64,000 nucleotides of DNA. Origin: Pseudomonas sp. R84. GTDB taxonomy: Bacteria > Pseudomonadota > Gammaproteobacteria > Pseudomonadales > Pseudomonadaceae. The DNA lies in assembly GCF_009834515.1 (NCBI RefSeq), contig NZ_CP019426.1, positions 4,143,501 to 4,207,500 on the forward strand. The letters are read 5' to 3'. Below the pieces are notes generated by a model, which saw nothing but the letters and a program-made list of their open reading frames with translations, searched no databases and was not told the DNA's origin. Shown in pieces: positions 42,704-58,020 of this stretch; within the stretch, counting starts at the first letter, position 1; every line of letters begins with the position of its first letter. The position numbers and the translations under genes were made by a program.

Positions 42704-44173
42704 TTAGTTGTGCGGCGTGGCTGGAGTGGCGTTGGCTGCGGTCAGGGTTTGCCCCTGGAAGCCGCCGCCCAGCGCTTGCATCAGTTGAATCGACAGGTCG
42801 ATCTGCTCGGCATTGAAGTTGGCCAGTTGACGCTGGGCCTGCAGCAATTGCTGCTCAATGCTGAGCACGTCCAGGTAGTTGCCGATGCCGGAACCGTAAC
42901 GCTGGACGACGGTGTTGTAAGAATCCTGAGCAATGTCGGTGGCGTGTTGCTGCGCACCGATCTGCCGGCCGATGTCACGCAACTGGTTGATCGTGTCACT
43001 GACATCGCCCAGGGCTTTCACCAGACTTTTGTTGTACTGCGCCACCGCCAGATCGTAATCGGCGTCACGCGCATCGAGGTTGGCGCGCAGGCGTCCGCCG
43101 TCGAAGATCGGCACCGAAATGGTCGGGGCAATATTGAAGAAGCGACTGGCGGAACCGAACATCGCATCACCCAACAAGGATTCGGCACCGGCCGAAGCCG
43201 TGAGATTCAAGTTGGGATAGAAGCGGGTTTTCGCCGAGTCGATGTCTTTGCTCGCCGCTTCGACGCGCCAGCGCGCAGCGACCAGATCCGGGCGACGACC
43301 GAGCAATTCCGCTGGCAATACCGACGGCACGGCGACAGCGCTGGCTTGCAGGACTTTCGGTCGGGCGATTTCGTTGCCGCGATCCGGGCCTTTGCCGAGC
43401 AGTACGGCCAAGGCGATCTTGGCGCTGTTCAGGCGTTTTTCTGCGTCGATCAGGCTGGCTTCGGAACTGGCTTCCAGACTTTGCGTTTGCTGAAACTGGT
43501 ACTGGCTATCGATCCCTGAACTCAGGCGACGCTGGCTCAAATCGAGCATCTGCCTGGTGCGCTTGAGGTCTTCATTCGCGAGGTCATAAACGATGTGCGC
43601 CTGACCGAGATCGCTGTAGGCACGAGCGACATCGGCAGCAAGCGTCAACTGCGCAGCCTGACGATCAACTTCAGCGGCGCGGGCCTGACCGAGTGCGGCT
43701 TCCCAGGCATCACGCTGACCGCCCCACAGGTCGAAGTTGTAATTGAAACCGGCGCTGACGTTCCGCACGGTGGCGTAGGCATCGCCCTGCCCTCGCGGGT
43801 CTTGATCCTTGGCCAGACGCGAACGGCTGATGCCGGCGCTGGCGTCGAGGGTCGGATAACGTTCGGCATCGGCGGCATACGCGGCGGCGCTGGCCTGATG
43901 GGCGCGCGCTGCGGCGATCTGCATGTCCGGGCTGTCGTGCAGCGCTTCACGAATCAGACCGTCGAGTTGCGGATCGCCAAGGCTGGTCCACCAATCGCTT
44001 TTCGGCCATGCGGCTGGCGACAGGGTCACGCCGTTGAGGGATTGGCCGACTTTCAGGCTTTTCGCATCAAGGCTTTTGCCTTGAGTGTCGAGGCCACTGT
44101 AGTTGGCGCAACCGGCGAGGATCATCGCCGACAGCACCAGCGTCAGGCTGCTGCGCAAGGTTTTACCGCTCAT
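42704..44173 (-). CDS. Outer-membrane efflux lipoprotein, NodT family
   Basis: TolC-like channel of the efflux system. 489 residues from the ATG at 44173, which has AGGTG at good distance; a GTG at 44182 is an alternative. The lipobox LAGC near residue 21 predicts a lipoprotein. Two OEP repeats follow (LDGLIREALHDSPDMQIAAA and a second). It overlaps the end of marR by 11 bases. Confidence 0.93.
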   Translation of the reverse strand: MSGKTLRSSLTLVLSAMILAGCANYSGLDTQGKSLDAKSLKVGQSLNGVTLSPAAWPKSDWWTSLGDPQLDGLIREALHDSPDMQIAAARAHQASAAAYAADAERYPTLDASAGISRSRLAKDQDPRGQGDAYATVRNVSAGFNYNFDLWGGQRDAWEAALGQARAAEVDRQAAQLTLAADVARAYSDLGQAHIVYDLANEDLKRTRQMLDLSQRRLSSGIDSQYQFQQTQSLEASSEASLIDAEKRLNSAKIALAVLLGKGPDRGNEIARPKVLQASAVAVPSVLPAELLGRRPDLVAARWRVEAASKDIDSAKTRFYPNLNLTASAGAESLLGDAMFGSASRFFNIAPTISVPIFDGGRLRANLDARDADYDLAVAQYNKSLVKALGDVSDTINQLRDIGRQIGAQQHATDIAQDSYNTVVQRYGSGIGNYLDVLSIEQQLLQAQRQLANFNAEQIDLSIQLMQALGGGFQGQTLTAANATPATPHN

Positions 44174-44645
44174 TGTGTTCACCTAAGCGCTGGATGGTGA
44201 TCGGGTCACCGGCTGCCAGCAGAATTTTCTTGAGGATGTATTCCAGGGTCTTCAACTCGTCCGGAGTGACGGCGCCGGCCAGTTCATTCATCGCATCGGC
44301 GCCGATGTGCGGCAGGCGATCGGCCAGTTGCTGGCCTTGCTCGGTCAGCTTGAGTTGCACCTGACGGCGATCGCCTTCGCTGCGCTGGCGAGCCAGAAAA
44401 CCTTTCTGCTCCAGACGATCGAGCATGCGCGTCATCGAACCGCTGTCCAGCGACAAGTGCCGGCACAGTTCGGCCGGGGTATCGACGCCGAACTGGGCCA
44501 TGATGATCAACACCTTGAACTGCGCGGCGGTGATTCCGTGGGGTTCCATGTGGGTGTCGATGATCCGGTCCTTGAGCAGCGCAGCACGGCCAAGCAACAG
44601 GCCGAGATGGCAATGTTTGAATTCGTCCGGGGTGAAATGCTTCAT
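44163..44645 (-). CDS. MarR-family repressor of the efflux operon
   Basis: 160 residues. Winged helix with DTPAELCRHLSLDSGSMTRM and the wing RSEGDRRQVQLKLT, most like EmrR/MprA. First gene of the operon. Two palindromes in its own promoter make autorepression very likely; phenolic or drug ligands would relieve it by family analogy. Confidence 0.92.
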   Translation of the reverse strand: MKHFTPDEFKHCHLGLLLGRAALLKDRIIDTHMEPHGITAAQFKVLIIMAQFGVDTPAELCRHLSLDSGSMTRMLDRLEQKGFLARQRSEGDRRQVQLKLTEQGQQLADRLPHIGADAMNELAGAVTPDELKTLEYILKKILLAAGDPITIQRLGEHNER

Positions 44646-44659
44646 TTGCTCACCTAATA

Positions 44660-44715
44660 ACTGCCTAGGCAGTGAATGTATGTCGAGATGTTACTGCCTA
44701 GGCAGCGAATGTCAA
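44660..44715 (-). promoter_or_regulatory. Efflux-operon promoter with two MarR-type operators
   Basis: On the minus strand -35 TTGACA (44715-44710), a 16-base spacer and -10 TAACAT (44693-44688). Perfect palindrome CTGCCTAGGCAG fills the spacer (44694-44705) and recurs at 44661-44672 just after the start point. Centres are 33 bases apart, about three helix turns. Confidence 0.85.
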
Positions 44716-44786: not shown

Positions 44787-44831
44787 TCTAGGAATCGCCT
44801 GATGTCCAGGCTCGAGTGCCGTGGCTAACGT
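44787..44831 (+). promoter_or_regulatory. RcsB-like box and -10 before the adhesin gene
   Basis: Box TCTAGGAATCGCCTGATGT (44787-44805), 20 bases, then TAACGT (44826-44831). The same layout is found before the kinase operon and the fimbrial operon. Confidence 0.65.
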
Positions 44832-44866
44832 ACGCCGCTCATCGGCCGACACGTAAAGCCCTACTA

Positions 44867-45835
44867 ATGAAGCGTTTCAAACTCCACCGCCCGCTCCTGC
44901 TCTCTATCGCAGTCACTCTGTTTGCCTGCGCTTCGAACGCGATGGCCGGCAGTTGTGTGGTAGTCGACTCAAAACTCGACACGCTCAACTTCGGCGCCAG
45001 CCTGGCCAGTTCAACCCTGACCATTCCTGCCGACACACCCAATGGCACCGTGGTTTATCAGGACACCGTGCAGTCGACCGCTCACATCTGGAGCTGCTCA
45101 AAGACGTCCATGTTCGGCATTCTGATGAATCCGAAGTTAGGCACCGCCAGCGGTACGGAAACTCTTTTTCCGTTAGGCAAAAGCGGGCTTTCCTACCGGG
45201 TCTGGTTTGCCGCGCTAGACCGCTACCAATCAGCGCCGCAGGCCATCGCGCCCAACACCAGCTATGGCTTCGGTGCAAACTCGGTGCGCCTGGAAATCGT
45301 CAAGACCGGCGAGCTGGCGTCGAAAGTCAACATCGATGCGGGGTATCTGGGCAGCCTGCAGGACGATGATCTGATCCTGAAAAAACTCAACCTGATGAAC
45401 CCCATCGTACTGAACGCCGCCTCCTGCGAGACACCTTCCGTCCCGGTGGCCATGGGCGACGATTATCAACTTCATGAATTTCGCGAAGCCGGCGCCAAGC
45501 CGCGCACGGTGCGCTTCGATATCGCCCTGAACCAATGCCAGACCGGCATCAAGAAAGTCACCTATTCGCTCAAGGCCAACACGCCAGTGATCGACGCGAC
45601 CAAGGGCATCGTCGCACTGAATGCCGGGTCCACCGCCAAAGGCATCGGCCTGCAAGTGATGAATGAAGCGGGCCAGCCGATCGCTTTCGACACGACCTAC
45701 CCGTTCGATGCTTTCAACACCACCGGGCTCAACTTCAAGATCCCGTTGTCAGCCGCTTATTACCGCCTGGGCAATGAAGAACTCAGCGCGGGCAGCGCCA
45801 ATACCGAAGTGACTTTCATCGTCAATTACTTGTGA
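44867..45835 (+). CDS. Fimbrial tip adhesin-like protein
   Basis: 322 residues from the ATG at 44867. A signal peptide ends at SNAMA. A two-part layout, with a first domain that has a cysteine pair (GSCVVVD, IWSCSKTS) and a C-terminal pilin-like domain ending TEVTFIVNYL, fits FimH-type tip adhesins of chaperone-usher fimbriae. The fimbrial operon 9 kb downstream lacks an adhesin gene, which supports the role. It is transcribed on its own, ahead of the regulator genes, and has its own box and -10. Receptor unknown. Confidence 0.75.
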   Translation: MKRFKLHRPLLLSIAVTLFACASNAMAGSCVVVDSKLDTLNFGASLASSTLTIPADTPNGTVVYQDTVQSTAHIWSCSKTSMFGILMNPKLGTASGTETLFPLGKSGLSYRVWFAALDRYQSAPQAIAPNTSYGFGANSVRLEIVKTGELASKVNIDAGYLGSLQDDDLILKKLNLMNPIVLNAASCETPSVPVAMGDDYQLHEFREAGAKPRTVRFDIALNQCQTGIKKVTYSLKANTPVIDATKGIVALNAGSTAKGIGLQVMNEAGQPIAFDTTYPFDAFNTTGLNFKIPLSAAYYRLGNEELSAGSANTEVTFIVNYL

Positions 45836-45839
45836 AGTC

Positions 45840-45884
45840 TTTAAGAATCGTCTGATTTTCGCCGCCCCCGGCCACCCCTACTGT
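45840..45884 (+). promoter_or_regulatory. RcsB-like box and -10 before the regulator operon
   Basis: Box TTTAAGAATCGTCTGATTT (45840-45858), 20 bases, then TACTGT (45879-45884). The predicted start point falls at or next to the kinase ATG (45891), so the mRNA might have almost no leader. Confidence 0.6.
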
Positions 45885-45890
45885 GCCGGC

Positions 45891-48704
45891 ATGCGATTGA
45901 AGAATTACCTCCACCAGATCAGCCCGGTCCTGTCCACGCCCCATGCTGCGCGACGTTTGTTGCGCATTTTTGCGTGGGTGTTGCTGGTGGGCATCCTCGG
46001 TGGCGTGTACAGCTTTCTGCTGTTCACCTTCAACAATGAGATCTCCCAGCGGCGCAGCTACATGAGCAGCGCCATTGCCGAGGCGCATACGTTTTTCACT
46101 ACGCGCGAGGCGCTGCTGGAAAGCCTGAGTTTGTCGGCGACTCGGCAGACTGCGTTAAGCGCGCCGCTGTCCGAAGAGGAAATTCGACTGTTGCTCGGAC
46201 AACCCCCGGGCAAGCAATGGAGCATCTGGCTGACCCAGCGCATGCGCGACTACCTGCAGGCGCGCAAACTGAACCTGCTCTACGTCAGCAGCGGCGCCAA
46301 GGTGCAGGTCTGGCGTCTGTACAACACGACGCCCATGGCCGGCGATTTTCCGCGTGCGATGCTTGATCGCCTGGAAACCCTCAAGCGTGACAACACCAGC
46401 GCCCTCAAAGAAATCTGGCTGACCCACAATTCGCAAGGGCACTCGCAGCTGTACATTTTTATTCGTCTGGATGATCGCGACCTCGATTCCGGCTGGCTCG
46501 GTCTGGAAATGGACGACCGCGAAGTCTCCAGCGCATTGAGCGACCATAGCGCCGGCGAGTTCACCATGTTCAACTCGCAAGGCATGCCACTCTTCAGCAA
46601 CAGCCACAAGCCGCCGCCCGGGCAGGATCTGCCGCTGTTGCGCCAACAGGATTTCTTCGGCTTCGTCGGAGACGGCTGGCTGCCCGAGCAATTGGTGTTG
46701 CGCAAACAGCTGAAATCGTCGGACTGGCAGTTGACCTATTCCATCGACTTGCTCGCAGTGTTGTGGGCGTTGTGGCCACAGATGCTTGGCGCGCTGGCCT
46801 TCTGCGTGGCCAGTATCAGCTTGGTCTGGCTGCTGATCCGGCGTCTGGAACATCGCTTCATCATGCCGACCCTGCAACGCATTCAAGCGTTGGTCGAAAG
46901 TGAGCTGTTCAGCCGCGACGTGATCCAGACCGCGCCAGTGGCGCTCTGCGTATTACGCCGCAGCGATGCTCAAGTGGTGCTGGAAAATACCCTCGCGCAG
47001 CAATGGCTGGGCGCCTGCAGCGAACAACTCGGCCCCGGCTGGATCCGGGCTGCATTCGCGGAAAACGCGCCATGCCTGACCGACTACTTCGAGACCGCCG
47101 ACGGTCGCCACCTGTACCTGAGCTGCGCGCCGACCCGCTACAAGGGCGAAGACGTGTTGCTTTGCGCCTTCAGCGACATCAGCGCACGCCGACAGATCGA
47201 AGCGGCGCTGGAGCAGGCGCGCCAGTCGGCCGATGCCGCCAACGAAGCGAAAACCCTGTTTCTGGCGACCATGAGCCACGAAATCCGCACGCCGCTGTAT
47301 GGCGTGCTCGGCACTCTGGAGTTGCTCGCTCGGACCCGGCTCGACGCTCAGCAGAAAGGTTACTTGCGAGCGATCGAAGGATCGTCGGCGACCCTGCTGC
47401 AATTGATCTGCGACGTGCTCGATGTGTCGAAAATCGAGGCCGGGCAATTGGCGCTGGAACTGAGTGATTTTTCCGTCGTGGCGCTCGCCCAAGAAGCCGT
47501 TCAAGGATACGCGGCGGCGGCACAGAGCAAAGGCTTGCAGCTGTACGCCTGCTTTGACCCGCAATTGCCCGACAGCTTGATCGGCGATGTCAGTCGCTTA
47601 CGGCAGATCCTCAATAATCTGTTGAGTAACGCGGTCAAATTCACCGATTCCGGGCGCGTGGTGTTGCGGGTCAAAGTGCTGACCCGCGAAGGCGAACGCG
47701 TTTGCGTGCAATGGCAGGTCTCGGACACCGGGCGCGGGATTGCCCACGCGGATCAGGCCTTCATCTTCGAACCGTTCTACCAGACCCAAGGCAACAGCCA
47801 TGAGGTTGCCGGTACCGGGCTGGGCCTGCCGATTTGCCTGCGCCTGACCCATCTGATGGATGGCACCCTGCGCATGGTCAGCGAGCCGGGGCTGGGCAGC
47901 AGTTTTTCCCTGACCTTGCCGCTGGAGCAGCGCTCGGGTAATGCGCAGCCTGAGGGCAAGGCGAAGCTCGCGGCCGATACCGTTTACGTGGTGTCGCCAG
48001 TGCGCGAGCTGGCCGAAAGCCTCGCTGGCTGGTTGCGCCGCTGGGGCGCTCTGCCGCATATCGGCGCACCGGCCAGCCACGACGGTGCCGACGATGGCGT
48101 GTTGCTTGAGTTGTGGCCTGCGCCGATGGAACAGCGCCGAGAACTGCGCTGGGCAGGGCCACGTATTCTGGCGAGCGGCGATGGCGCGTGGGAGTCGCTG
48201 AGCAAAGGCGACGGCTGGCTCGTCAACCTGAACGATCTGGCCGCGATCCGCCAGGCGGTGTGCCAAGCGCAGGGCGGTCCCGTCATCGAGCATCAACACC
48301 CCGCTCAAACCCAGGTGCTGGCGGCGTTACACCTGCACATCCTCGTCGCCGAAGACAATGCGATCAACCAACTGATCCTGCGTGACCAATTGCAGGAACT
48401 GGGCTGCACGGTGACGTTGGCCAGCGATGGCGAAGAAGCCTTGTCACTCTGGCAGGACGACAGCTTCGATGTCGTCCTGACTGACGTGAACATGCCACAT
48501 CTCAACGGCTACGAACTGGCCAAGGCCCTGCGACACCTGGGCTGCACCACGCCGATCATCGGCGCCACCGCCAACGCCCTGCGCGGTGAAGAGGCGTTGT
48601 GCCTGGCCGCCGGCATGAATCACTGCCTGATCAAACCTTTCACGTTGCGAGCCTTGTCGACCGCACTGGCTCCCTACCAACGAGTCGCCGATGAAGTCCT
48701 CTAG
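45891..48704 (+). CDS. Hybrid sensor histidine kinase without Hpt (PvrS/RcsC/RocS-like)
   Basis: 937 residues. Membrane helices at about 25-47 and 295-317 frame a periplasmic sensor region. Then come a PAS-like segment (about 345-435), HisKA with H463 (ATMSHEIRTPLYGVLG), HATPase_c, a degenerate receiver-like stretch (about 700-800) and a receiver with D865 (LTDVNMP). It ends right after the receiver, with no Hpt domain. It overlaps the EAL regulator gene by 14 bases. The likely role is control of the local fimbria. Confidence 0.88.
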   Translation: MRLKNYLHQISPVLSTPHAARRLLRIFAWVLLVGILGGVYSFLLFTFNNEISQRRSYMSSAIAEAHTFFTTREALLESLSLSATRQTALSAPLSEEEIRLLLGQPPGKQWSIWLTQRMRDYLQARKLNLLYVSSGAKVQVWRLYNTTPMAGDFPRAMLDRLETLKRDNTSALKEIWLTHNSQGHSQLYIFIRLDDRDLDSGWLGLEMDDREVSSALSDHSAGEFTMFNSQGMPLFSNSHKPPPGQDLPLLRQQDFFGFVGDGWLPEQLVLRKQLKSSDWQLTYSIDLLAVLWALWPQMLGALAFCVASISLVWLLIRRLEHRFIMPTLQRIQALVESELFSRDVIQTAPVALCVLRRSDAQVVLENTLAQQWLGACSEQLGPGWIRAAFAENAPCLTDYFETADGRHLYLSCAPTRYKGEDVLLCAFSDISARRQIEAALEQARQSADAANEAKTLFLATMSHEIRTPLYGVLGTLELLARTRLDAQQKGYLRAIEGSSATLLQLICDVLDVSKIEAGQLALELSDFSVVALAQEAVQGYAAAAQSKGLQLYACFDPQLPDSLIGDVSRLRQILNNLLSNAVKFTDSGRVVLRVKVLTREGERVCVQWQVSDTGRGIAHADQAFIFEPFYQTQGNSHEVAGTGLGLPICLRLTHLMDGTLRMVSEPGLGSSFSLTLPLEQRSGNAQPEGKAKLAADTVYVVSPVRELAESLAGWLRRWGALPHIGAPASHDGADDGVLLELWPAPMEQRRELRWAGPRILASGDGAWESLSKGDGWLVNLNDLAAIRQAVCQAQGGPVIEHQHPAQTQVLAALHLHILVAEDNAINQLILRDQLQELGCTVTLASDGEEALSLWQDDSFDVVLTDVNMPHLNGYELAKALRHLGCTTPIIGATANALRGEEALCLAAGMNHCLIKPFTLRALSTALAPYQRVADEVL

Positions 48705-49878
48705 CCTACTGATTGTCGAAGATCACCCATTTCAGCATCTGTACTTGCAGAACCTGTTCAATGCGCTGGGCGTGTTCGATCTGGAATTTGCCCGGGACGG
48801 CGAAGAAGCCCTGCACCGCCTGCAAAATCGCGAATTCGATCTGGTGCTTACCGATCTGTTGATGCCGGGCATGGACGGCGTGCAGTTCATTCAGGGCCTC
48901 GCGATGCAGAAATCGCGCCCGGCACTGGCGATCATGAGCGCCGCCTCGCGGCGCATGCTGATGGGTGCGAGCCTGGTGGCGAGCAATCTGCAGGTGAAGG
49001 TCATCGGGCTGATTTCCAAACCGGTCAACAGCGCGGCATTGCACTGCCTGATCGAGCAGTTGCAGGCGTTGCGTCAGGACGCGCCTGTTGCCGCGCATAC
49101 CGGTATTGATCGGCAGAGCATTTTGCGCGCGCTGGACAACGGTGAGCTGCAAGCCTGGTTTCAACCCAAGAAGGCGCTGGACAATGGCCGCATCGTCGCC
49201 GCCGAAGCACTGGTGCGCTGGGTGCACCCCGAACATGGCATGTTGTTACCGGGGTTATTTCTGCCGGTGCTGATCGCCCACGACCTTGAAGAACATCTGC
49301 TCTGGCGCATGCTGGAACAGGCGATTGCCGCCCAGGCAATATGGCGCCAGCAAGGCTATGACATTCCGGTGTCGATCAATCTGCCCACGCACTTGCTCAA
49401 CAGCCACGACCTGCCCGATCGCATCCTCGCCTTTGTCCTGCAACACAACGGTCTGCCGGCGCGGATCTGTTTCGAGCTGATGGAATGCTCGGTGCCCGAC
49501 GACATCAGCAATTTCTACGCCGGAGCCTGTCGCTTGCGGATCAAGGGTTTCGGCTTGTCTCAGGATGATTTCGGCAAAGGCTACAGCGCCTACATGAACC
49601 TGGTGTCGGCGCCGTTTACCGAGCTGAAAATCGACCGTGCACTGGTCCAGGGTTGCAACAGCAACGCCGAACTGGCGCAAGCGCTGACCAGCATCGTCAC
49701 CCTGGGTCGGCAACTGGGCCTGACGGTGGTGGCCGAAGGCGTGGAAACCGCGCAAGAACTTGCTCTGTTGCGTAAGATCGACTGCACTCAGGTTCAGGGT
49801 TTCCTGATTTCCCACGCAGTGTCTTCGGAGCAGTTCCAGCAGTTGCTCAGCCACGACGGCCCGGCGAATGTCTGGTGA
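48691..49878 (+). CDS. REC-EAL response regulator, c-di-GMP phosphodiesterase (PvrR/RocR-like)
   Basis: 395 residues. Receiver with D55 (LTDLLMP), then an EAL domain whose active residues look complete: EAL at 172-174, SINLP, FELMEC, QDDFGKGYSAY, KIDRAL, VVAEGVE and VQGF. It would degrade c-di-GMP and so oppose fimbria expression, as PvrR and RocR do in P. aeruginosa. It probably takes phosphate from the neighbouring kinases. Confidence 0.9.
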   Translation: MKSSSLLIVEDHPFQHLYLQNLFNALGVFDLEFARDGEEALHRLQNREFDLVLTDLLMPGMDGVQFIQGLAMQKSRPALAIMSAASRRMLMGASLVASNLQVKVIGLISKPVNSAALHCLIEQLQALRQDAPVAAHTGIDRQSILRALDNGELQAWFQPKKALDNGRIVAAEALVRWVHPEHGMLLPGLFLPVLIAHDLEEHLLWRMLEQAIAAQAIWRQQGYDIPVSINLPTHLLNSHDLPDRILAFVLQHNGLPARICFELMECSVPDDISNFYAGACRLRIKGFGLSQDDFGKGYSAYMNLVSAPFTELKIDRALVQGCNSNAELAQALTSIVTLGRQLGLTVVAEGVETAQELALLRKIDCTQVQGFLISHAVSSEQFQQLLSHDGPANVW

Positions 49879-49924
49879 CCGGCACAATGCAGTGGACAAT
49901 CACCACTTGCCATCGAGGCCATCC

Positions 49925-49966
49925 ATGTTCACTCGCGTAATCACTTTCTTTGACCGGGCGTGTTGA
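49925..49966 (+). CDS. Possible 13-residue upstream ORF
   Basis: ATG at 49925 with GAGG upstream encodes MFTRVITFFDRAC; its TGA overlaps the ATG of the next kinase (TGATG). It could couple translation, since the kinase has only a weak ribosome site of its own. Confidence 0.3.
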   Translation: MFTRVITFFDRAC

Positions 49967-52900
49967 TGCCGCATCCCAATGCCTTGCTGGAAAAACTCGC
50001 CAGCAGTTCACTGCGCCTGAACAAGGGCTTGCTGATCCTCGGCGCGCTGGTTTTGCTGTTGCTGGGCATCAGCTATCTCGGCGTGCAGCGCATGGTCGAA
50101 GAACAGCGCGATACCATGCAGTTCCACTTCGCCCGGCTGATGGAAAACATTCGCGAGCAGGAAGCGTTTCTCGGCGATATCTCACGGGCCAGCGACAAGG
50201 GCGAGTACTTCCCGGAAACCGTGGCGCCGCCGGTGGTGCAAAAGCGTTTGCCCGAAGAAGGGCCGAACATTTATGAAGGCCGTGGGCTGCCGTTCTCGCT
50301 GCCATTCAGCGTCAAGATCGACCCCGAGCGAATCGCTCCCAGCCAACACCCCAAGGTGTTTGCCCTCGGCAGCTATCTGGCAGCGTATTACAGCGCCTTC
50401 TGGGCGGCCTCGCATTACCAGTCGCCGCAGGTGATCCTGCTCAACGGCCCGGACAATTTCGATATCGCCGTGCCCGCCGCCGGTCGTCTGCGAGGTGCGG
50501 GGCCAACGCAAATCAGCACCTTCGTCGAGATCATGACCCAGAAGAATCTGCAACGGCGCGCGCAGACTTCAGCGCAAGTGCAGTGGGCGCCCTACCCGTT
50601 CGCTGCGGACGACAACGTGACGCCGAGCCTGCTCGCTTATGTACGGATCAACCTGAGCAAACCGACGCTGACCATTGAAGGGGCGAATTCCTGGGTAGTG
50701 CTCGGCTCGCTGCTGAAGCTCTCGCAAGTCAACAATATCGAGCGTTTGATGAAATGGTCGATCTACGATGACTTCACCCTGATCACGCCCAGCGGCACAG
50801 TGTTGATCGGCGAACTCAAGCCTGATCGGGTGCTCAATGAAGGCGCAAACCTGACCCGCGACGGTCTGGTGTTCAAGCTGAGCAGCCCCGGTGAACGGCA
50901 CTGGACGGCGATCTATGTGATCAGCGTGCAGAGTTTTCTCGATTACGCATTATGGCCATTGCTGTGTCTGCTGGGCTTGGTGCTGGTAGTGCTCGGCAGT
51001 GGCCGAGCGCTGAATCGCTGGTACGCGCAACGGGTGATTTTGCCCGCACAAAGTGCCCACGCAAGCATCGCCGAAAGTGAAGCGTTCAGCCGTGCGGTCA
51101 TCGATACCGCACCGACCGGCCTGTGCGTGATCAGCCGTCGTGATCATCAGGTCTTGCTGGAAAACCAGCGCGCCCAGCAATGGCACGACACCCAGGAATT
51201 GATCAGCCTGCTCGAACAACAAGGCGCGACCGGCCATGGCCACGCGGAGCTTGAGATCGACGGCCGGCATTTGCACGTGGCCTTCATCGCCACCCGTTAT
51301 CAGGGCCAGGACGCGTGGCTGTGTGCGCTGCACGATGTCACCCGCCATGTCGAAGATGCAGCGGCACTGGAAGTCGCCCGTCAGGCGGCCGATTCGGCCA
51401 ATCAGGCAAAAAGCCGTTTTCTGGCAACCATGAGCCATGAAATCCGCACGCCGCTGTATGGCGTGCTCGGCACCCTGGAACTGCTTGGCCTGACCGATCT
51501 CGCGCCGCGTCAGCAGGCCTATCTGGAAACCATTCAGCGCTCGTCCGCCAGCCTGTTCAAACTGATCAGCGACGTGCTGGATGTGTCGAAAATCGAGGCC
51601 GGGCAGATGAACCTTGAGCTTCAGCCGTTCTGCCCGCTGGAGCTGACCGAAGACGTGGTGCGCAGCTACGGCGCGTTTGCCCGAGGCAAAGGTCTGCAAC
51701 TGTACGCCTGCATTGATGCGGCATTGCCGGATCAACTGCTCGGTGATGCGCAACGCATTCGCCAGATCCTCAACAACCTGCTGAGCAACGCGATCAAGTT
51801 CACCGATAACGGGCGCGTTGTGGTGCGCGTTGTGGTGCTGCAAAGCACTGGCGGCCGCGCCGAGGTGCAGTGGCAGGTCAGCGATTCCGGCGTGGGTATT
51901 TCCCAGGCACAGCAAGAGCAATTGTTCGACCCTTTCTATCAAGTCAATGAAGCCGATAGTCATGCCGGTGCGGGTCTCGGTCTGGCCATTTGCAAATGGC
52001 TGTGCGAGTTGATGCATGGCGAGTTGAATGTGGTCAGCGAACCGGGCCTGGGCAGTCGCTTCAACCTGCAACTGGCGCTGGATTGCGCGCCGGGCAGGCT
52101 CGCCGATTGCCCGGCCTTCGAGGCCGGCAGCGCCGCCGTTTACGTGCGCGCACCGGTCGCCGAACTGGCGCAGCATCTGCTCGGCTGGCTGCACCGCTTT
52201 GGTCTGGATTGCCGTCTGGTGACGCACGAGTTGCCGTCGTCTTCCGCGCTGCTGGTGGATCTTGCGCCGCTGACCCACGCCACGGTTTTCGATGGCCAGC
52301 GAATCGTCGCAATACCGGGCGGCCCCAACCCGGCACAGATCAGCGGCAGCGGCTGGCAGGTCGATGCCGACGATGTGCGCGCGATTGGCTGGGCGATCGC
52401 GCTGGCAAGGCACGACGCCCATCAGCGGCGCGTACCCGAGCAGCAGGAAAATACCCGAGCACTGAACCTGCGCGTGCTGGTGGCCGAGGATAATGTGATC
52501 AACGCAGCGGTCATCCAGGAACAACTGGAGGCACTAGGCTGCTCGGTGGTTGTCACTACCAACGGCGAACAGGCGCTGGAGCGATGGGCGCCGGGGCGCT
52601 TCGATATGCTGCTGACCGACGTCAACATGCCGATCATGAACGGCTATGAGCTGACCACAGCCTTGCGCGAACAGGATGCAACGCTGCCGATCATCGGTGT
52701 TACCGCCAACGCCTTGCGCGAAGAAGGCGAACGCTGCGCCGCTGTGGGTATGAACGCATGGTTGGTCAAACCGCTGAACCTGGCGACGCTGCGCGCGCAA
52801 CTGCAAAGCCACTGCCAGATTCCGATCGCGCAGGTCGCTGACATCCCGCCAGCGCTATCGCCGAAGATGCGCGAGCTGTTTGTCTCGACACTGCACAAGG

Positions 52901-53127
52901 ATATTCAGACCACCCTCAGCGCGCTGGATGCCGCCGACGCCAACAGCGTCGCGCAGCAACTGCACAGCATGGCCGGTGCGTTGGGTGCGGTGCAGGTCGA
53001 GGCGCTGGCCCAAGCTTTCGTTGCACTGGAATGCCGCCTGACCGGCATGTCGGTGACTCCCGCGCTGGCCGTAGAGGTTCGTCAACAACTGGCGCGCCTG
53101 ACTGACCTGCTCGACGCCCTTGAATAA
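49966..53127 (+). CDS. Hybrid sensor histidine kinase with Hpt (PvrS/RcsC/RocS-like)
   Basis: 1053 residues from the ATG at 49966 (GTG and TTG two and one codons upstream are alternatives). Membrane helices at about 22-40 and 325-347 frame a periplasmic sensor. PAS-like segment, HisKA with H491, HATPase_c, degenerate receiver-like stretch, receiver with D885 and a C-terminal Hpt with H1000 (QLHSMAGALGAV). It is a diverged paralog of the kinase at 45891. It can supply the Hpt step for both output regulators. Confidence 0.9.
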   Translation: MPHPNALLEKLASSSLRLNKGLLILGALVLLLLGISYLGVQRMVEEQRDTMQFHFARLMENIREQEAFLGDISRASDKGEYFPETVAPPVVQKRLPEEGPNIYEGRGLPFSLPFSVKIDPERIAPSQHPKVFALGSYLAAYYSAFWAASHYQSPQVILLNGPDNFDIAVPAAGRLRGAGPTQISTFVEIMTQKNLQRRAQTSAQVQWAPYPFAADDNVTPSLLAYVRINLSKPTLTIEGANSWVVLGSLLKLSQVNNIERLMKWSIYDDFTLITPSGTVLIGELKPDRVLNEGANLTRDGLVFKLSSPGERHWTAIYVISVQSFLDYALWPLLCLLGLVLVVLGSGRALNRWYAQRVILPAQSAHASIAESEAFSRAVIDTAPTGLCVISRRDHQVLLENQRAQQWHDTQELISLLEQQGATGHGHAELEIDGRHLHVAFIATRYQGQDAWLCALHDVTRHVEDAAALEVARQAADSANQAKSRFLATMSHEIRTPLYGVLGTLELLGLTDLAPRQQAYLETIQRSSASLFKLISDVLDVSKIEAGQMNLELQPFCPLELTEDVVRSYGAFARGKGLQLYACIDAALPDQLLGDAQRIRQILNNLLSNAIKFTDNGRVVVRVVVLQSTGGRAEVQWQVSDSGVGISQAQQEQLFDPFYQVNEADSHAGAGLGLAICKWLCELMHGELNVVSEPGLGSRFNLQLALDCAPGRLADCPAFEAGSAAVYVRAPVAELAQHLLGWLHRFGLDCRLVTHELPSSSALLVDLAPLTHATVFDGQRIVAIPGGPNPAQISGSGWQVDADDVRAIGWAIALARHDAHQRRVPEQQENTRALNLRVLVAEDNVINAAVIQEQLEALGCSVVVTTNGEQALERWAPGRFDMLLTDVNMPIMNGYELTTALREQDATLPIIGVTANALREEGERCAAVGMNAWLVKPLNLATLRAQLQSHCQIPIAQVADIPPALSPKMRELFVSTLHKDIQTTLSALDAADANSVAQQLHSMAGALGAVQVEALAQAFVALECRLTGMSVTPALAVEVRQQLARLTDLLDALE

Positions 53128-53149
53128 TTTCACTCTGGATAAAGCACTC

Positions 53150-53797
53150 ATGGAAACCTTCAACGTTGTCATCGCCGATGATCATCCCATCGTCCTGCTG
53201 GGGGTGCGGGAACTGGTCGAGCGCGACCGGCGCTTCAGCGTAGTCGGCGAGGCCGTGTGTTCCGATGGTTTGATCAAGCTGCTGAGGTCACAACCGGTGG
53301 ATCTGCTGATCACCGACTTCAACATGCCCGGTGACTCGCCCTACGGTGATGGCCTGAAACTGGTGGAGTACGTGACCCGACACTTTCCCGCAGTGCGGGT
53401 GCTGGTGCTGACCATGATTTCCAACCCGTTGATCCTGACCCGCCTGCAAGAACTCGGCGTACTTGCAGTCATTCAGAAAAGCCAGTTGCACGTTGAAATA
53501 GAAGTGGCGCTCAAAACCATCGCCAAGGGCAAGCGCATAAGCGGCCATCGAACGACGCCGACTTCGGTGCTGGACGATGGCGCCGATCTCGATGAACGTT
53601 TCTCCCGTCTATCGCCCAAGGAACATGAAATCCTGCGCTTGTTTGTTCAGGGGCAAGGCGTCAATGAAATCGCCCGAGGTCTGAATCGAAGTGCAAAGAC
53701 AATCAGCACGCAGAAGATTTCGGCCATGCGCAAACTGGATGTCAGCAGTGATCAGGAGCTGCTGACTTACTGCATCGAACGCAACTTGTTCAATTGA
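53150..53797 (+). CDS. REC-LuxR response regulator (RcsB/RocA1-like)
   Basis: 215 residues from the ATG at 53150. Receiver with D56 (LLITDFNMPGDSPYGDGL, the RcsB-type loop) and a LuxR-type helix-turn-helix (LSPKEHEILRLFVQGQGVNEIARGLNRSAKTISTQK, read in two parts). Its place directly before the fimbrial subunit gene mirrors rcsB-cupD. It is the prime candidate to bind the shared 19-bp box. Confidence 0.9.
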   Translation: METFNVVIADDHPIVLLGVRELVERDRRFSVVGEAVCSDGLIKLLRSQPVDLLITDFNMPGDSPYGDGLKLVEYVTRHFPAVRVLVLTMISNPLILTRLQELGVLAVIQKSQLHVEIEVALKTIAKGKRISGHRTTPTSVLDDGADLDERFSRLSPKEHEILRLFVQGQGVNEIARGLNRSAKTISTQKISAMRKLDVSSDQELLTYCIERNLFN

Positions 53798-53828
53798 CAG
53801 ACTGTTGCCCCTCGCAACTTGCTGGTTT

Positions 53829-53873
53829 CTAGGGATTGTCTGATGTTGCAGCGCCCAACCGGGTTTTATCGTG
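53829..53873 (+). promoter_or_regulatory. RcsB-like box and -10 before the fimbrial operon
   Basis: Box TCTAGGGATTGTCTGATGT (53829-53847), 20 bases, then TATCGT (53868-53873). The ATG of the major subunit lies 30 bases further. Confidence 0.65.
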
Positions 53874-53903: not shown

Positions 53904-54491
53904 ATGAAAAAGCTGTCTCGCACGCTTCTCGCCCTGTCGATCTTCGCTGCCGCTAATGTCCTGGCGGCCGATCCGGTTGTGCCTACCAAGGCTGGCAGCG
54001 GCACCATCAACTTCACCGGCACCATCAACAACGATGCCTGCTCGGTCGAAGGCGCCGGCAAGGACAAGACCATTTCGGTGAACATGGGCGAAGTGTCGAT
54101 CAAGGACATGGGCACCGCCACCGCGCCAAAAGGCAACGGCACGCTGAGCGTCGAGAACTTCGACATGAAGATCAACTGCAACGCTGGCACCAAAGTGGCA
54201 ATGATCTTCGAACCAACCAAGGGCGCAGGCTCGGGTATCGAAACCGGCACCAAGGTCTTGAAACTGATCGACGGCCTGGGCTCGGCAAAAGGTATCGGTA
54301 TCGCCTTGCTTGATGCCAACGGTGCAGTAATCGACCTGACTTCGCCGACTACCGCGCGCATCGAAAACACCCTGCAGGACAGCAACACCACGCTGAAATT
54401 CTCGGCCGCCTACGTGACCACCGTCGATCCGAAACTGGCCGTTGCCGGCCGTGGCGACGCGACCCTGCCGTTCACCCTGCAATACGAATAA
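53904..54491 (+). CDS. Major fimbrial subunit
   Basis: 195 residues. A signal peptide ends at NVLAA. The pilin domain has the disulfide cysteines C46 and C92, GTINFTGTINNDACSVEG at the start and the C-terminal donor strand ending TLPFTLQYE with the penultimate tyrosine. It is polymerised through the chaperone and usher encoded downstream. A hairpin follows the gene. Confidence 0.9.
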   Translation: MKKLSRTLLALSIFAAANVLAADPVVPTKAGSGTINFTGTINNDACSVEGAGKDKTISVNMGEVSIKDMGTATAPKGNGTLSVENFDMKINCNAGTKVAMIFEPTKGAGSGIETGTKVLKLIDGLGSAKGIGIALLDANGAVIDLTSPTTARIENTLQDSNTTLKFSAAYVTTVDPKLAVAGRGDATLPFTLQYE

Positions 54492-54565: not shown

Positions 54566-55312
54566 ATGTTTTTACGTCCTTCCCTGTCCCTTTGCGTCGG
54601 CCTTCTGGGCCTGCTCGCCGTCAATCAGGCCATGGCTGGCATTTCCCTGAGCAGCACTCGACTGATATTCGACGGCAAGCACAAAGAAGCCGGCATCACC
54701 GTGCGCAACAGCGGTGCAGACGTGTTGATTCAGTCCTGGGTCGATACCGACAGCGACGAAGCCTCTGTGCCCTTTGCCGTCACTCCACCGCTGGTGCGCG
54801 TCAGCGACGGAGAACAACAGATTCTGCGGGTCATCTACGAAGGCACCGGTATGCCCAAAGACCGCGAGTCGGTGGTGTGGTTGAACGTGCAGGAGATCCC
54901 GCAGTCGGCGAAAACCGCGAACACCCTGCAACTGGCGGTGCGCCAACGGATCAAGGTGTTCTTCCGCCCTGGCGGCCTGAACAACAACGCTTATCAGGCC
55001 CCGACCGAGCTGACCTGGCGACTGACCGAGCGCGCCGGCAAGAGCGTACTGGTGGTGAGTAATCCCGGGGTTTATCACGTCTCGATTGCCGACATCACTG
55101 TGCAATCCGGCGCCACACGCGAGCATCCGTTCGACTCGATGATGATCGCCCCTGGCGAAGAAAAAGAGTTTGTTCTCAAACAACTTCACACGGCAGGTTC
55201 CCCGCGCCTGTTGTTCAGCAGCATCAACGACTACGGCGCCAGAGACCGTTATGTCGCGCAACTTTCCGGCAGCGCCGCAGTAAGCGCCAGCCTGGATAAA
55301 GAATCGCCATGA
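54566..55312 (+). CDS. Periplasmic fimbrial chaperone
   Basis: 248 residues. A signal peptide ends at NQAMA. The PapD-type two-domain fold shows ISLSSTRLIFDGKHKEAGIT, the ESVVWLNVQEIP motif and the RIKVFFRP strand. It carries subunits to the usher. The subfamily resembles Cup chaperones of Pseudomonas. Confidence 0.92.
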   Translation: MFLRPSLSLCVGLLGLLAVNQAMAGISLSSTRLIFDGKHKEAGITVRNSGADVLIQSWVDTDSDEASVPFAVTPPLVRVSDGEQQILRVIYEGTGMPKDRESVVWLNVQEIPQSAKTANTLQLAVRQRIKVFFRPGGLNNNAYQAPTELTWRLTERAGKSVLVVSNPGVYHVSIADITVQSGATREHPFDSMMIAPGEEKEFVLKQLHTAGSPRLLFSSINDYGARDRYVAQLSGSAAVSASLDKESP

Positions 55313-55397: not shown

Positions 55398-57890
55398 ATG
55401 TTTTTATTCAAGCGCGATGGCCTGGCACCGTTTTCGGTTGCTCTGGTCTTCAGCACAACCTGTCTGGCTGACGCCGAAGAGCAATTCAATACCTCGTTTC
55501 TGCAAGGCGCGACGTCTGCCATCGACCTGCAATCGCTGCTCGCCGGCAGCCGCGTGCTCCCCGGCACTTACCGGGTCGATCTGTATGGCAACGATATGCT
55601 GGTGGGCCGCCGCGATATCGCCTTTCGGCGTCTCCCCGACAGTCACAAGGTCCAAGCCTGTCTGACTCTGGACATGCTCAAGCAACTGGGCGTGGATATT
55701 GGCAAGCTGCAAGCCAGCGGCAAACTCGACGTCGCCGATGCGGATGCCTGCCTCGACCTGCCAGCGCTGATCGATCATGCCACCGTGCGCTATGACGTGC
55801 CGCGCCTGCGTTTGCTGGTCAGCGTGCCGCAAAGTGCCATGGAGCGTGGCCGCCGTGGTTATGTCGATCCGGCGCTGTGGGACGAAGGCGTACCCGCAGC
55901 GTTCATCAATTATCAGGTGAGCAGCAACCGCAACAGCACCGATGCCCAGACCACGATTGCCAATAACGTCGGCCTGCGCAACGGCATAAACCTTGGCGGC
56001 TGGCGCCTGCGTAACGAGTCGAACTTCAACAGCAGCACCGGCCAGCCAAGTACGTTCAAGAGTAACCGCAGCTACCTGCAACATGACGTCACCGCGCTGA
56101 AGGGCCAGTTCAGTGCCGGGGATATTTTCTCCGACGCCGACCTGTTCGACAGCGTGCGTTATCGCGGCCTGAAACTGGCCTCCGACGACGGCATGCGCGC
56201 CGACAGTGAGCGCGGCTATGCGCCGGTGATTCGCGGCATTGCGCAATCCAGCGCCACGGTAGAGATTCGCCAGAACAATTACATTCTGTACACCGCCAAC
56301 GTACCGCCCGGGCCGTTCGAGATCAGCGACATTTACCCCAGCGGCTCCAACGGCGATCTGGAAATCACCGTAATCGAAGCCGATGGCCGGCGCCGGGTCA
56401 CGGTGCAGGCTTTTTCAAGCCTGCCGATCATGGTGCGCGAAGGCCAGTTGAAGTACAGCGTTTCGGCGGGCCGCTACAACAGCAACAGCGATGACCAGCA
56501 AACGCCGGAATTTATCAGCAGCACCGTGGCTTATGGCGTCAGCAGTAACCTGTCGGCGATTGTCGGCACTCAGGCCACCGAGGATTTTCAGGCACTGTCG
56601 ATCGGCGCCGGTCGCAACACTGCCATCGGGGCGATCTCGCTCGATCTGACCCACTCCAGCAGTCGCACCTTCGGCCAGACGCTCAAGGGCAACAGCCTGC
56701 GCGCGTTGTACGCCAAGACCTTTACCGGTACTGACACCAACTTCACCCTCGCCGCTTATCGCTATTCGACCGAGGGCTATCGCACCTTGAGCGAACACGT
56801 CGAAGAGCTAAGCCGTGAGGGTGAGCAGCGTAGCGGCAACTCGAAAACCCGCACCGACCTCACTGTCAACCAGAGCCTGGGGCGCAATCAGCAGTTCGGC
56901 AGCATCTACCTCAACGCCAGTGATCAGCGCTATTGGGGCCGCGGCGGTTCGCAGAGCCTGTCGGCCGGTTACAGCAATTATTGGGCTGACGTCAGCTACA
57001 ACCTCAGCGCGACTTACACCAAGGATGTCGGCAACTACGGCCCGGCGAACAACGACACTTTGTTCAATCTCTCAGTGTCGTTTCCGCTGGGCTCAAAGCC
57101 CCGCGCGCCGCGAGCGTTCGTTTCGGCCAGCACGCAGAAAGATGACAGCAGCACCCAGGTCGGCATCAACGGTTACCTGTCCGAAGACAGCGACACCTAT
57201 TACTCAGTGCAGGGAGGCAACAGTCGCACCGGCGGCAGTACGGGGTCGGCCAACCTCAGCACGCGAACCCCAGTGATGGACATCAGCGCCGGCTACAGTC
57301 AGGGCCGTGGCTACAACTCGCAGAGTCTCAACGTGGCCGGATCGATTGTCGGCCACGCGGGCGGGATCAACCTGGGGCAGACCGTCGGTGAGACTTTTGC
57401 GCTGGCGCAGGTCGACGGTGTCAAAGACGTGAAGATTGCCAGTTTCTCGGGCGCGAAAACCGCCGGTAATGGATTCGCTGTGGTGTCCAATGCGCAGCCG
57501 TATCGGGTCAACTGGATCAGCCTCGACACCCGCGACCTGGGCGGCGACTTTGAAATTGAAAACGCCACCCAGCAAGTGGTACCGCGCCGTGGTGCCGTGG
57601 TGCTAGCGCGCTACGCGAGCAAAACCGGACGCCGGGTGCAGTTTTCTCTGTTCGACGCGCACCACCAGCCGATCCCGTTTGGCGCCGCACTGGAGGACGC
57701 CGCCGGCAAACAACTGGCGATCTCCGACCCGAGCGGCAAGGCACTGGCGCTGGTCGCGGACGACGCCGGCACCCTGACCATCAATTGGCAAGGCCAGCGC
57801 TGCGAGGCGTCGTATGCACTGCCCGAGCGGGACAAGGCGTTGAACTACGAGCGGGCCTCCCTGGTGTGCCGCGCGCCAGTGGCTGACTGA
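55398..57890 (+). CDS. Outer-membrane fimbrial usher
   Basis: 830 residues. A signal peptide ends near CLADA. N-terminal chaperone-binding domain (EEQFNTSFLQG...), 24-strand barrel with plug, and two C-terminal domains with the terminal cysteine pair (QRCEASY, SLVCRAP). The likely ribosome site is AGGG seven bases before the ATG. A perfect GGAGGTGAT lies 13 bases further upstream without a suitable start. No adhesin gene follows, only a REPIN. Confidence 0.92.
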   Translation: MFLFKRDGLAPFSVALVFSTTCLADAEEQFNTSFLQGATSAIDLQSLLAGSRVLPGTYRVDLYGNDMLVGRRDIAFRRLPDSHKVQACLTLDMLKQLGVDIGKLQASGKLDVADADACLDLPALIDHATVRYDVPRLRLLVSVPQSAMERGRRGYVDPALWDEGVPAAFINYQVSSNRNSTDAQTTIANNVGLRNGINLGGWRLRNESNFNSSTGQPSTFKSNRSYLQHDVTALKGQFSAGDIFSDADLFDSVRYRGLKLASDDGMRADSERGYAPVIRGIAQSSATVEIRQNNYILYTANVPPGPFEISDIYPSGSNGDLEITVIEADGRRRVTVQAFSSLPIMVREGQLKYSVSAGRYNSNSDDQQTPEFISSTVAYGVSSNLSAIVGTQATEDFQALSIGAGRNTAIGAISLDLTHSSSRTFGQTLKGNSLRALYAKTFTGTDTNFTLAAYRYSTEGYRTLSEHVEELSREGEQRSGNSKTRTDLTVNQSLGRNQQFGSIYLNASDQRYWGRGGSQSLSAGYSNYWADVSYNLSATYTKDVGNYGPANNDTLFNLSVSFPLGSKPRAPRAFVSASTQKDDSSTQVGINGYLSEDSDTYYSVQGGNSRTGGSTGSANLSTRTPVMDISAGYSQGRGYNSQSLNVAGSIVGHAGGINLGQTVGETFALAQVDGVKDVKIASFSGAKTAGNGFAVVSNAQPYRVNWISLDTRDLGGDFEIENATQQVVPRRGAVVLARYASKTGRRVQFSLFDAHHQPIPFGAALEDAAGKQLAISDPSGKALALVADDAGTLTINWQGQRCEASYALPERDKALNYERASLVCRAPVAD

Positions 57891-57899
57891 GAAGACGCC

Positions 57900-57989
57900 A
57901 TCGCTGGCAAGCCAGCTCCCACAAAGTCCTTGGCGCACACAACAATCATGTACGCCACAGAAGCTTGTGGGAGCTGGCTTGCCAGCGAT
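57900..57989. repeat. REPIN, second REP type
   Basis: Exact 24-bp arms starting ATCGCTGGCAAGCCAGCTCC at 57900 and ending in its inverse at 57989. This is a different REP family from the GTAGGAGTGAGCC type. It lies between the convergent usher and tamB genes. Confidence 0.92.
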
Positions 57990-58020
57990 TGAAGCGACTC
58001 GGTTCAGGAGAAAGCGCGAT

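Follow-up and report, generated by a model that had tools for sequence, protein, structure and literature searches.

The cupD-type locus and its promoter boxes

The DNA analyzed here is a 64,000-nucleotide stretch of contig NZ_CP019426.1 of Pseudomonas sp. R84 (the window), in which a shared 19-bp box stands in front of three units of a fimbrial locus: an adhesin gene, a putative operon of four regulatory genes (pvrS-pvrR-rcsC-rcsB) and the genes for a fimbrial subunit, its chaperone and its usher. As judged by gene content, the locus is a Pseudomonas cupD-type cluster, comprising pvrS-pvrR-rcsC-rcsB and the fimbria genes, and the adjoining position of the regulatory and subunit-chaperone-usher genes is kept in many related loci. 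The names PvrS and RcsC rest on gene order and domains; in the Pfam scan, an Hpt domain was found in the RcsC-like kinase and no match to it was reported for the PvrS-like kinase. Among the best 80 of 221 named relatives of PvrR, the closest come from Pseudomonas, one being identical and the next, from P. siliginis and P. fluorescens, 93-94% identical, which probably places the window on the P. fluorescens side of the genus. The features of the locus are as follows.

44787..44805, plus strand: putative RcsB box 1, adhesin promoter; exact match to the pattern, conserved in related loci
44826..44831, plus strand: putative -10 hexamer TAACGT, 20 bp 3' of box 1; TANNNT at +20 in 26 of 29 boxed adhesin contexts
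44867..45835, plus strand: fimbrial adhesin gene, PF00419 in the C-terminal half (Pfam)
45840..45858, plus strand: putative RcsB box 2, pvrS promoter, beginning 5 bp past the adhesin stop codon; exact match, conserved
45879..45884, plus strand: putative -10 hexamer TACTGT, 6 nt 5' of the pvrS ATG; predicted leaderless start
45891..48704, plus strand: pvrS-like hybrid histidine kinase gene (HisKA, HATPase_c, receiver)
48691..49878, plus strand: pvrR, receiver and EAL domains, cyclic diguanylate (c-di-GMP) phosphodiesterase family (NF052596 PvrR, 700.9 bits, cutoff 580)
49960..53127, plus strand: rcsC-like hybrid kinase gene with Hpt domain (Pfam)
53150..53797, plus strand: rcsB-like LuxR/NarL-type response regulator gene (Pfam, NCBIfam, relatives of solved structure)
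53828..53846, plus strand: putative RcsB box 3, subunit-chaperone-usher promoter; exact match, conserved
53867..53872, plus strand: putative -10 hexamer TATCGT, 20 bp 3' of box 3; TANNNT at +20 in 72 of 74 boxed subunit contexts
53904..54491, plus strand: major fimbrial subunit gene, cupD1-like (PF00419)
54566..55312, plus strand: periplasmic chaperone gene (PF00345, PF02753)
55398..57890, plus strand: outer-membrane usher gene (PF00577, PF13954, PF13953)

In a pattern scan of the window, all three boxes fitted the 19-bp pattern TYTARGRATYGYCTGATKT without a mismatch, and each was separated by exactly 20 bases from its hexamer. The original prediction, made from the same DNA, had claimed both the shared box and the identical 20-base spacing to TAACGT, TACTGT and TATCGT, and both claims hold at all three units; the box positions given as 44787 and 45840 were also correct, whereas the third, given as 53829, was off by one and should read 53828. 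Shuffled versions of the window contained 0.21 matches on average when three mismatches were allowed, and none of 100 shuffles reached three matches. A search of the whole genome (6,601,805 bp in one contig), which had been proposed with that prediction, returned just the three exact matches at the locus, together with one site at two mismatches and 17 at three. Given that the reversed pattern gave nine matches at up to three mismatches in the same genome, the three-mismatch matches are largely noise. A chance origin of the three boxes is ruled out by the shuffles, the genome scan and the genus-wide scan described below.

Conservation of the box, its spacing and the -10 hexamer

The RcsB-like protein was searched in 199 genomes of the genus at a threshold of 1e-40, which gave 83 matches in 66 genomes. 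From these, 52 loci of 20 kb (51-94% identity) were taken, leaving out 26 matches at 47% identity or less, four tandem second copies and the window's own. A further 80 named loci were added through PvrR, these being the best 80 of its 221 relatives; the two sets overlap in species, and identical promoter contexts were counted once. The counts refer to these 133 loci, the window included, plus one displaced adhesin gene. A relaxed box consensus, THTARGRATYGYCTKATKY, was derived from the loci and used with up to three mismatches, and in each context the box with the fewest mismatches between -300 and +60 was chosen. Minus-strand hits, pvrS hits beginning after residue 20, subunit hits below 45% identity, starts less than 120 bp from an end and duplicates of a context already counted were excluded. 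The search beyond the genus matched 48 genomes, from which loci were taken in 20 (all 19 of genus g9 and one of g15), the other 28 belonging to the window's own genus. PvrR relatives at 1e-90 were found in six of 398 genomes of the phylum, five of them within the family, and only one of the six (G654) was taken as a locus, for 21 outside-genus loci overall. Among plasmid records, 28 carry RcsB relatives, none of them from Pseudomonas, and three weak matches in viral contigs were not used.

The box preceded pvrS in 106 of 110 distinct contexts; for the subunit gene the figure was 74 of 74, and for the adhesin gene 29 of 33. A TANNNT hexamer followed at +20 in 90 of the 106 pvrS contexts (at +21 in nine more), 72 of the 74 subunit contexts (at +21 in one more) and 26 of the 29 adhesin contexts, which amounts to 188 of 209 boxed promoter contexts for the three units together. 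At any other offset, TANNNT was never counted more than four times, and its background rate was 0.002-0.005 per position. For two of the three adhesin exceptions (L110 and L113), the chosen box was a decoy, and a second box downstream has the N20-TANNNT arrangement. When contexts were thinned to less than 70% identity outside the box and hexamer, TANNNT at +20 was present in 47 of 58 pvrS contexts (six more at +21), 37 of 39 subunit contexts and 17 of 20 adhesin contexts. Contexts with TANNNT at +20 had a mean information content of 1.45-1.48 bits per box position, compared with 0.20-0.42 in the spacer; the values for box and hexamer are inflated by the selection of contexts, the low spacer value being unaffected. 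The recurrence in related cup loci that the original prediction had proposed to check was thus observed for box and spacing before the subunit operon, pvrS and the adhesin gene. Upstream of rcsC and rcsB, no box at up to three mismatches was found within 350 bp in the window and the related loci listed, and boxes directly before these two genes were dismissed on this basis.

One record, titled Achromobacter insolitus (L157), has a box before pvrS, with TAGATT at +20, and another before the subunit gene, with TTTAAT at +20. This hints at transfer of the locus between genera or at a misnamed record.

No good -35 element was evident: at spacings of 16-18, TTGACA was matched at a mean of 1.2-2.8 of its six positions, with ∼1.5 expected by chance. 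The frequency of TANNNT at +20 in boxed contexts and the lack of a good -35 support the class II arrangement claimed by the original prediction, an activated promoter in which the box would sit at a fixed 20-bp distance from the -10, in place of the -35. With the hexamer set at -12 to -7, the core of the box would be centered near -42.5, and its 3' edge would meet the position of the missing -35.

The RcsB-like regulator and its link to the box

The regulator encoded at 53150-53797 is 45-46.5% identical to RcsB of several enteric bacteria, and its best relatives of solved structure are RcsB. Its score of 179.2 bits against NF008098, the NCBIfam equivalog for enterobacterial RcsB, is below the cutoff of 235, and the protein is therefore called RcsB-like. 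An AAGAAT- or AGGAAT-like half-site is present in the boxes, as in the enterobacterial RcsB/RcsAB box, which likewise lies near the -35. The consensus for RcsB homodimers is KMRGAWTMWYCTGA; the literature found for it or for "RcsB box" did not contain this form. In enteric RcsB, K180 contacts DNA bases, and the half-sites at flhDC are TTAGGAA and TCTAAGA, according to the published account (PMC5829831). These half-sites resemble the left half of the window boxes. The equivalent of K180 is K183 in the window protein, and this lysine is kept in every recognition helix listed (the helix was not located in L097); at the second DNA contact, S184, the window protein has T, and its relatives have T, A or S.

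The exact relaxed box, THTARGRATYGYCTKATDY, was found in 35 of the 199 genus genomes, all of them within the 66 that have an RcsB-like match and none among the 133 without one. The reversed THTARGRATYGYCTKATDY gave no match in the same 199 genomes. For this co-occurrence, Fisher's test gave p ∼6e-21 from box and match lists compared by eye, a value that is indicative only because the genomes are related. In five of the 35 genomes (G061, G071, G073, G107 and G186), the exact box lies only off the locus, with those of G073 and G107 looking like chance. Of six off-locus exact boxes in all, two precede adhesin genes and have the spacing geometry, two lie near LuxR-type regulator genes (L172 and L173), and two (L174 and L175) look like chance and are without the geometry; that of L175 lies at the start of a reading frame resembling, by eye, an outer-membrane efflux protein. 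Given that the regulator is RcsB-like, that K180 is kept, that box and gene co-occur and that a GAA is essential at PA14 cupD1 (see "Discussion"), the suggestion in the original prediction that the core of the box recalls RcsB-type sites is supported.

In two related genomes, at L172 (near 2983) and L173 (near 7060), a LuxR-type response regulator gene has an exact box ∼150 bp 5' of it, on the opposite strand. These boxes point away from the regulator gene and are without the spacing geometry; the arrangement recalls the PA14 orphan regulators induced by RcsB.

A predicted leaderless start at pvrS

Between the hexamer and the pvrS ATG, the gap in the 106 boxed contexts is 6 nt in 93, 7 nt in four and 4 or 5 nt in two. 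The remaining seven have no TANNNT at +20 or +21, and five of these have CAGGCT, again 6 nt from the ATG. The 6-nt gap is also retained in all nine pvrS contexts in which the box-to-hexamer distance is 21. Given that conservation of the PvrS protein begins at its first residue (MRLKNYLHQ-like), while its codons show synonymous changes, the start codon is probably right. With 6 nt between hexamer and start point, transcription would begin at the pvrS ATG, or within a base or two of it, and the pvrS mRNA is therefore probably leaderless, starting at the first codon. Of the 21 outside-genus loci, 19 had a pvrS start that could be used; each of these, from sister lineages, shows a box (with two or three mismatches) and a hexamer-to-ATG gap of 6-7 nt. 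The absence of a strong Shine-Dalgarno sequence is a weak argument for a leaderless pvrS, since the median duplex energy of -2.2 for pvrS (119 loci) is nothing special beside that of 0.0 for the adhesin gene (24 loci). Among the matches listed from the open-licence literature, no paper combined pvrS and leaderless. Both the cupD locus type and the lack of room for a leader at the pvrS promoter are points beyond the original prediction.

Boxes at adhesin genes away from the locus

Two adhesin genes away from a cup locus (L176 and L171) still have the box, N20 and the -10. In G090, whose locus (L038) has no adhesin match, an adhesin gene lies ∼207 kb away with a box, 20 bp and TAGGGT. In G186, the best RcsB-like match reaches only 43% identity, and an adhesin relative (37% identical) keeps a box, 20 bp and TAGATT. 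A box situated 1.8-1.9 kb before pvrS is present in 15 loci, followed at +20 by TANNNT (13 loci) or CATGAT (two loci), the listing having taken in only sites with these hexamers; in the four that were read (L037, L041, L042 and L047), the genes behind the box resemble, by eye, those of a chaperone and an adhesin. Given the displaced adhesins and the boxes before chaperone and adhesin genes, the box is linked to the adhesin unit and not just to its position. The adhesin leader, from the -10 to the ATG (44832-44866 in the window), contains a CGCTCTTTGGCC-like stretch in many relatives.

Neighboring features

A MarR gene (44163-44645, minus strand) lies divergently upstream of the locus and is followed on the same strand by outer-membrane factor, HlyD-type and major facilitator superfamily (MFS) genes. 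Just upstream of it, a palindrome is present in two copies within 44660-44706 (ACTGCCTAGGCAGT at 44660 and ACTGCCTAGGCAGC at 44693), which are probably operators of the MarR gene. At the other end, the usher gene is followed by an inverted pair of sequences resembling repetitive extragenic palindromes, GCTGGCAAGCCAGCTCCCACA and its reverse complement, at 57900-57992, and tamB and tamA homologues (PF04357 and PF01103; 58021-63473, minus strand) lie 3' of the fimbria locus.

Discussion

The cupD system of P. aeruginosa PA14 is the closest point of comparison, having the same four regulator types beside a subunit-chaperone-usher cluster (PMC3842833, PMC2696094). As described there, cupD is activated by RcsB and its expression requires RcsB; PvrS acts as a kinase, RcsC as a relay and phosphatase, and PvrR has an opposing role; excess RcsB induces pvrS, pvrR, rcsC and rcsB (PMC3842833, PMC2696094). 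In both systems, an RcsB site (a putative one in the window) lies ∼75 bp before the subunit gene, and at PA14 cupD1 the GAA at -78 to -76 is reported to be essential (PMC3842833). At locus L182, the GAA of the subunit-gene box occupies -77 to -75, and the hexamer at +20 is CATCAT. Strain PA7 is also described as carrying cupD genes. The window differs in that its adhesin gene, lying upstream of pvrS, is a separate unit equipped with a box, and in the single spacing shared by three promoters; in the portions of the PA14 descriptions cited here, no box is given before pvrS or a separate adhesin unit.

A hybrid kinase, an EAL regulator and a LuxR-type regulator also stand beside a cup cluster in the roc/cupC system of P. 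aeruginosa (RocS1, RocR and RocA1), according to the part of the literature cited (PMC3842833). The genome of strain R84 has a second cup cluster (L085; G000:C1:3286000-3305999) with a divergent EAL regulator, a LuxR-type regulator and a hybrid kinase. Its make-up resembles that of the roc system, with which it may be equated, an equation that is our own. The subunit, chaperone and usher of L085 share 54-63% identity with their counterparts in the window; its matches to PvrR, RcsC and RcsB are 31-34% identical and those to PvrS 39-45% identical over parts. A box-like site with two mismatches lies upstream of its subunit gene. This site is without N20-TANNNT, and L085 was rejected as part of the same promoter design.

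We consider that the three boxes are class II operators of the RcsB-like regulator encoded at 53150-53797, with a probability of roughly 0.88 on the sequence evidence. In the mechanism proposed for this species, phosphorylated RcsB would bind the boxes as a dimer and recruit sigma-70 polymerase simultaneously to all three units, switching on the subunit-chaperone-usher operon, the adhesin gene and the putative pvrS-pvrR-rcsC-rcsB operon. The last of these would form a positive feedback loop that carries its own brake, in which PvrS and RcsB would raise activity while PvrR, as a phosphodiesterase, and RcsC, a relay and phosphatase in PA14, would lower it. That the regulator may drive its own regulators, as the original prediction proposed, receives indirect support from the pvrS box together with the induction of these genes by excess RcsB in PA14.

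Several observations count against this assignment. In PA14, a second RcsB-like site at -158 is dispensable according to the account cited (PMC3842833), and a matching sequence alone is therefore no proof of function. A box within three mismatches is absent in four of 110 pvrS and four of 33 adhesin contexts, the exact box is absent in 31 of the 66 genomes with an RcsB-like match, and four of six off-locus exact boxes are without the N20 hexamer, two of these four looking like chance. At pvrS, the sister lineages have a NANNCT hexamer (CAGGCT in 11 of 19) and not TANNNT, and L197, the sole locus from another family, shows neither a pvrS start nor a box of this design. Finally, the halves of the box differ (AAGRAT versus CTGAT on the same strand), and such unequal half-sites make a heterodimer possible.

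RcsB might accordingly bind with a LuxR-type partner (compare RcsA, GadE and BglJ in enteric bacteria), one protein per half-site. The exact boxes near LuxR-type regulator genes at L172 and L173 would fit such a partner, as would the description, in the part of a review cited, of motifs of different RcsB dimers as having one half in common and the other variable (PMC5651002). However, some related boxes are nearly symmetric (TAAGGATCGTCTTA), which weakly favors a homodimer, and we regard such a partnership at these sites as improbable. That the boxes serve some regulator apart from RcsB, such as the LuxR-type protein of L085, or that the two clusters cross-talk, is suggested by the EAL and LuxR-type regulators of that cluster and its box-like site; yet that site does not share the geometry, across genomes the occurrence of boxes follows that of RcsB-like genes, and PA14 is described as needing RcsB to express cupD, all of which makes this reading very improbable. 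The loci are syntenic and related, so that common descent without function might be invoked for the conservation of the box. This is scarcely credible, since box and spacing have been preserved amid diverged spacers and flanks, and the boxes stand before different neighbors and before displaced adhesins.

The alternative to a leaderless pvrS is that it is translated mainly from read-through transcripts of the adhesin gene, which ends 5 bp before box 2, or that the start point lies further upstream; the weak Shine-Dalgarno pairing is shared by the adhesin gene and hence not special to pvrS. Against this stand the gap of 6 nt in 93 of 106 contexts (7 nt in four more) and of 6 or 7 nt in 19 of 19 sister-lineage loci, as well as its constancy in the nine contexts with a box spacing of 21, and the alternative appears rather unlikely. 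With binding of the boxes by RcsB as the preferred reading, it is likely, at a lesser strength than for the operators themselves, that the locus represents a conserved RcsB regulon in which one class II design would serve the fimbria, the adhesin and its own phosphorelay, with a leaderless autoregulated operon in at least two Pseudomonas lineages and an operator that stays with the adhesin gene when this is displaced.

Control of cupD by RcsB, and induction by it of the four regulator genes, are already known from the PA14 work cited above. New here are the candidate sites at pvrS and the adhesin gene, the uniform class II geometry and the predicted leaderless pvrS mRNA, which would be kept in a sister genus. 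An observation made in one strain, RcsB control of cupD, is thereby extended to an operator and promoter design recognizable by sequence in many Pseudomonas species, and the box at pvrS is the likely cis-element behind RcsB autoregulation. A leaderless mRNA is predicted for a signaling operon. If this is so, synthesis of the kinase and the phosphodiesterase would be coupled to 70S initiation as well as to the RcsB promoter itself. This is a simple and testable idea that bears on how the switch between attaching and leaving is set.

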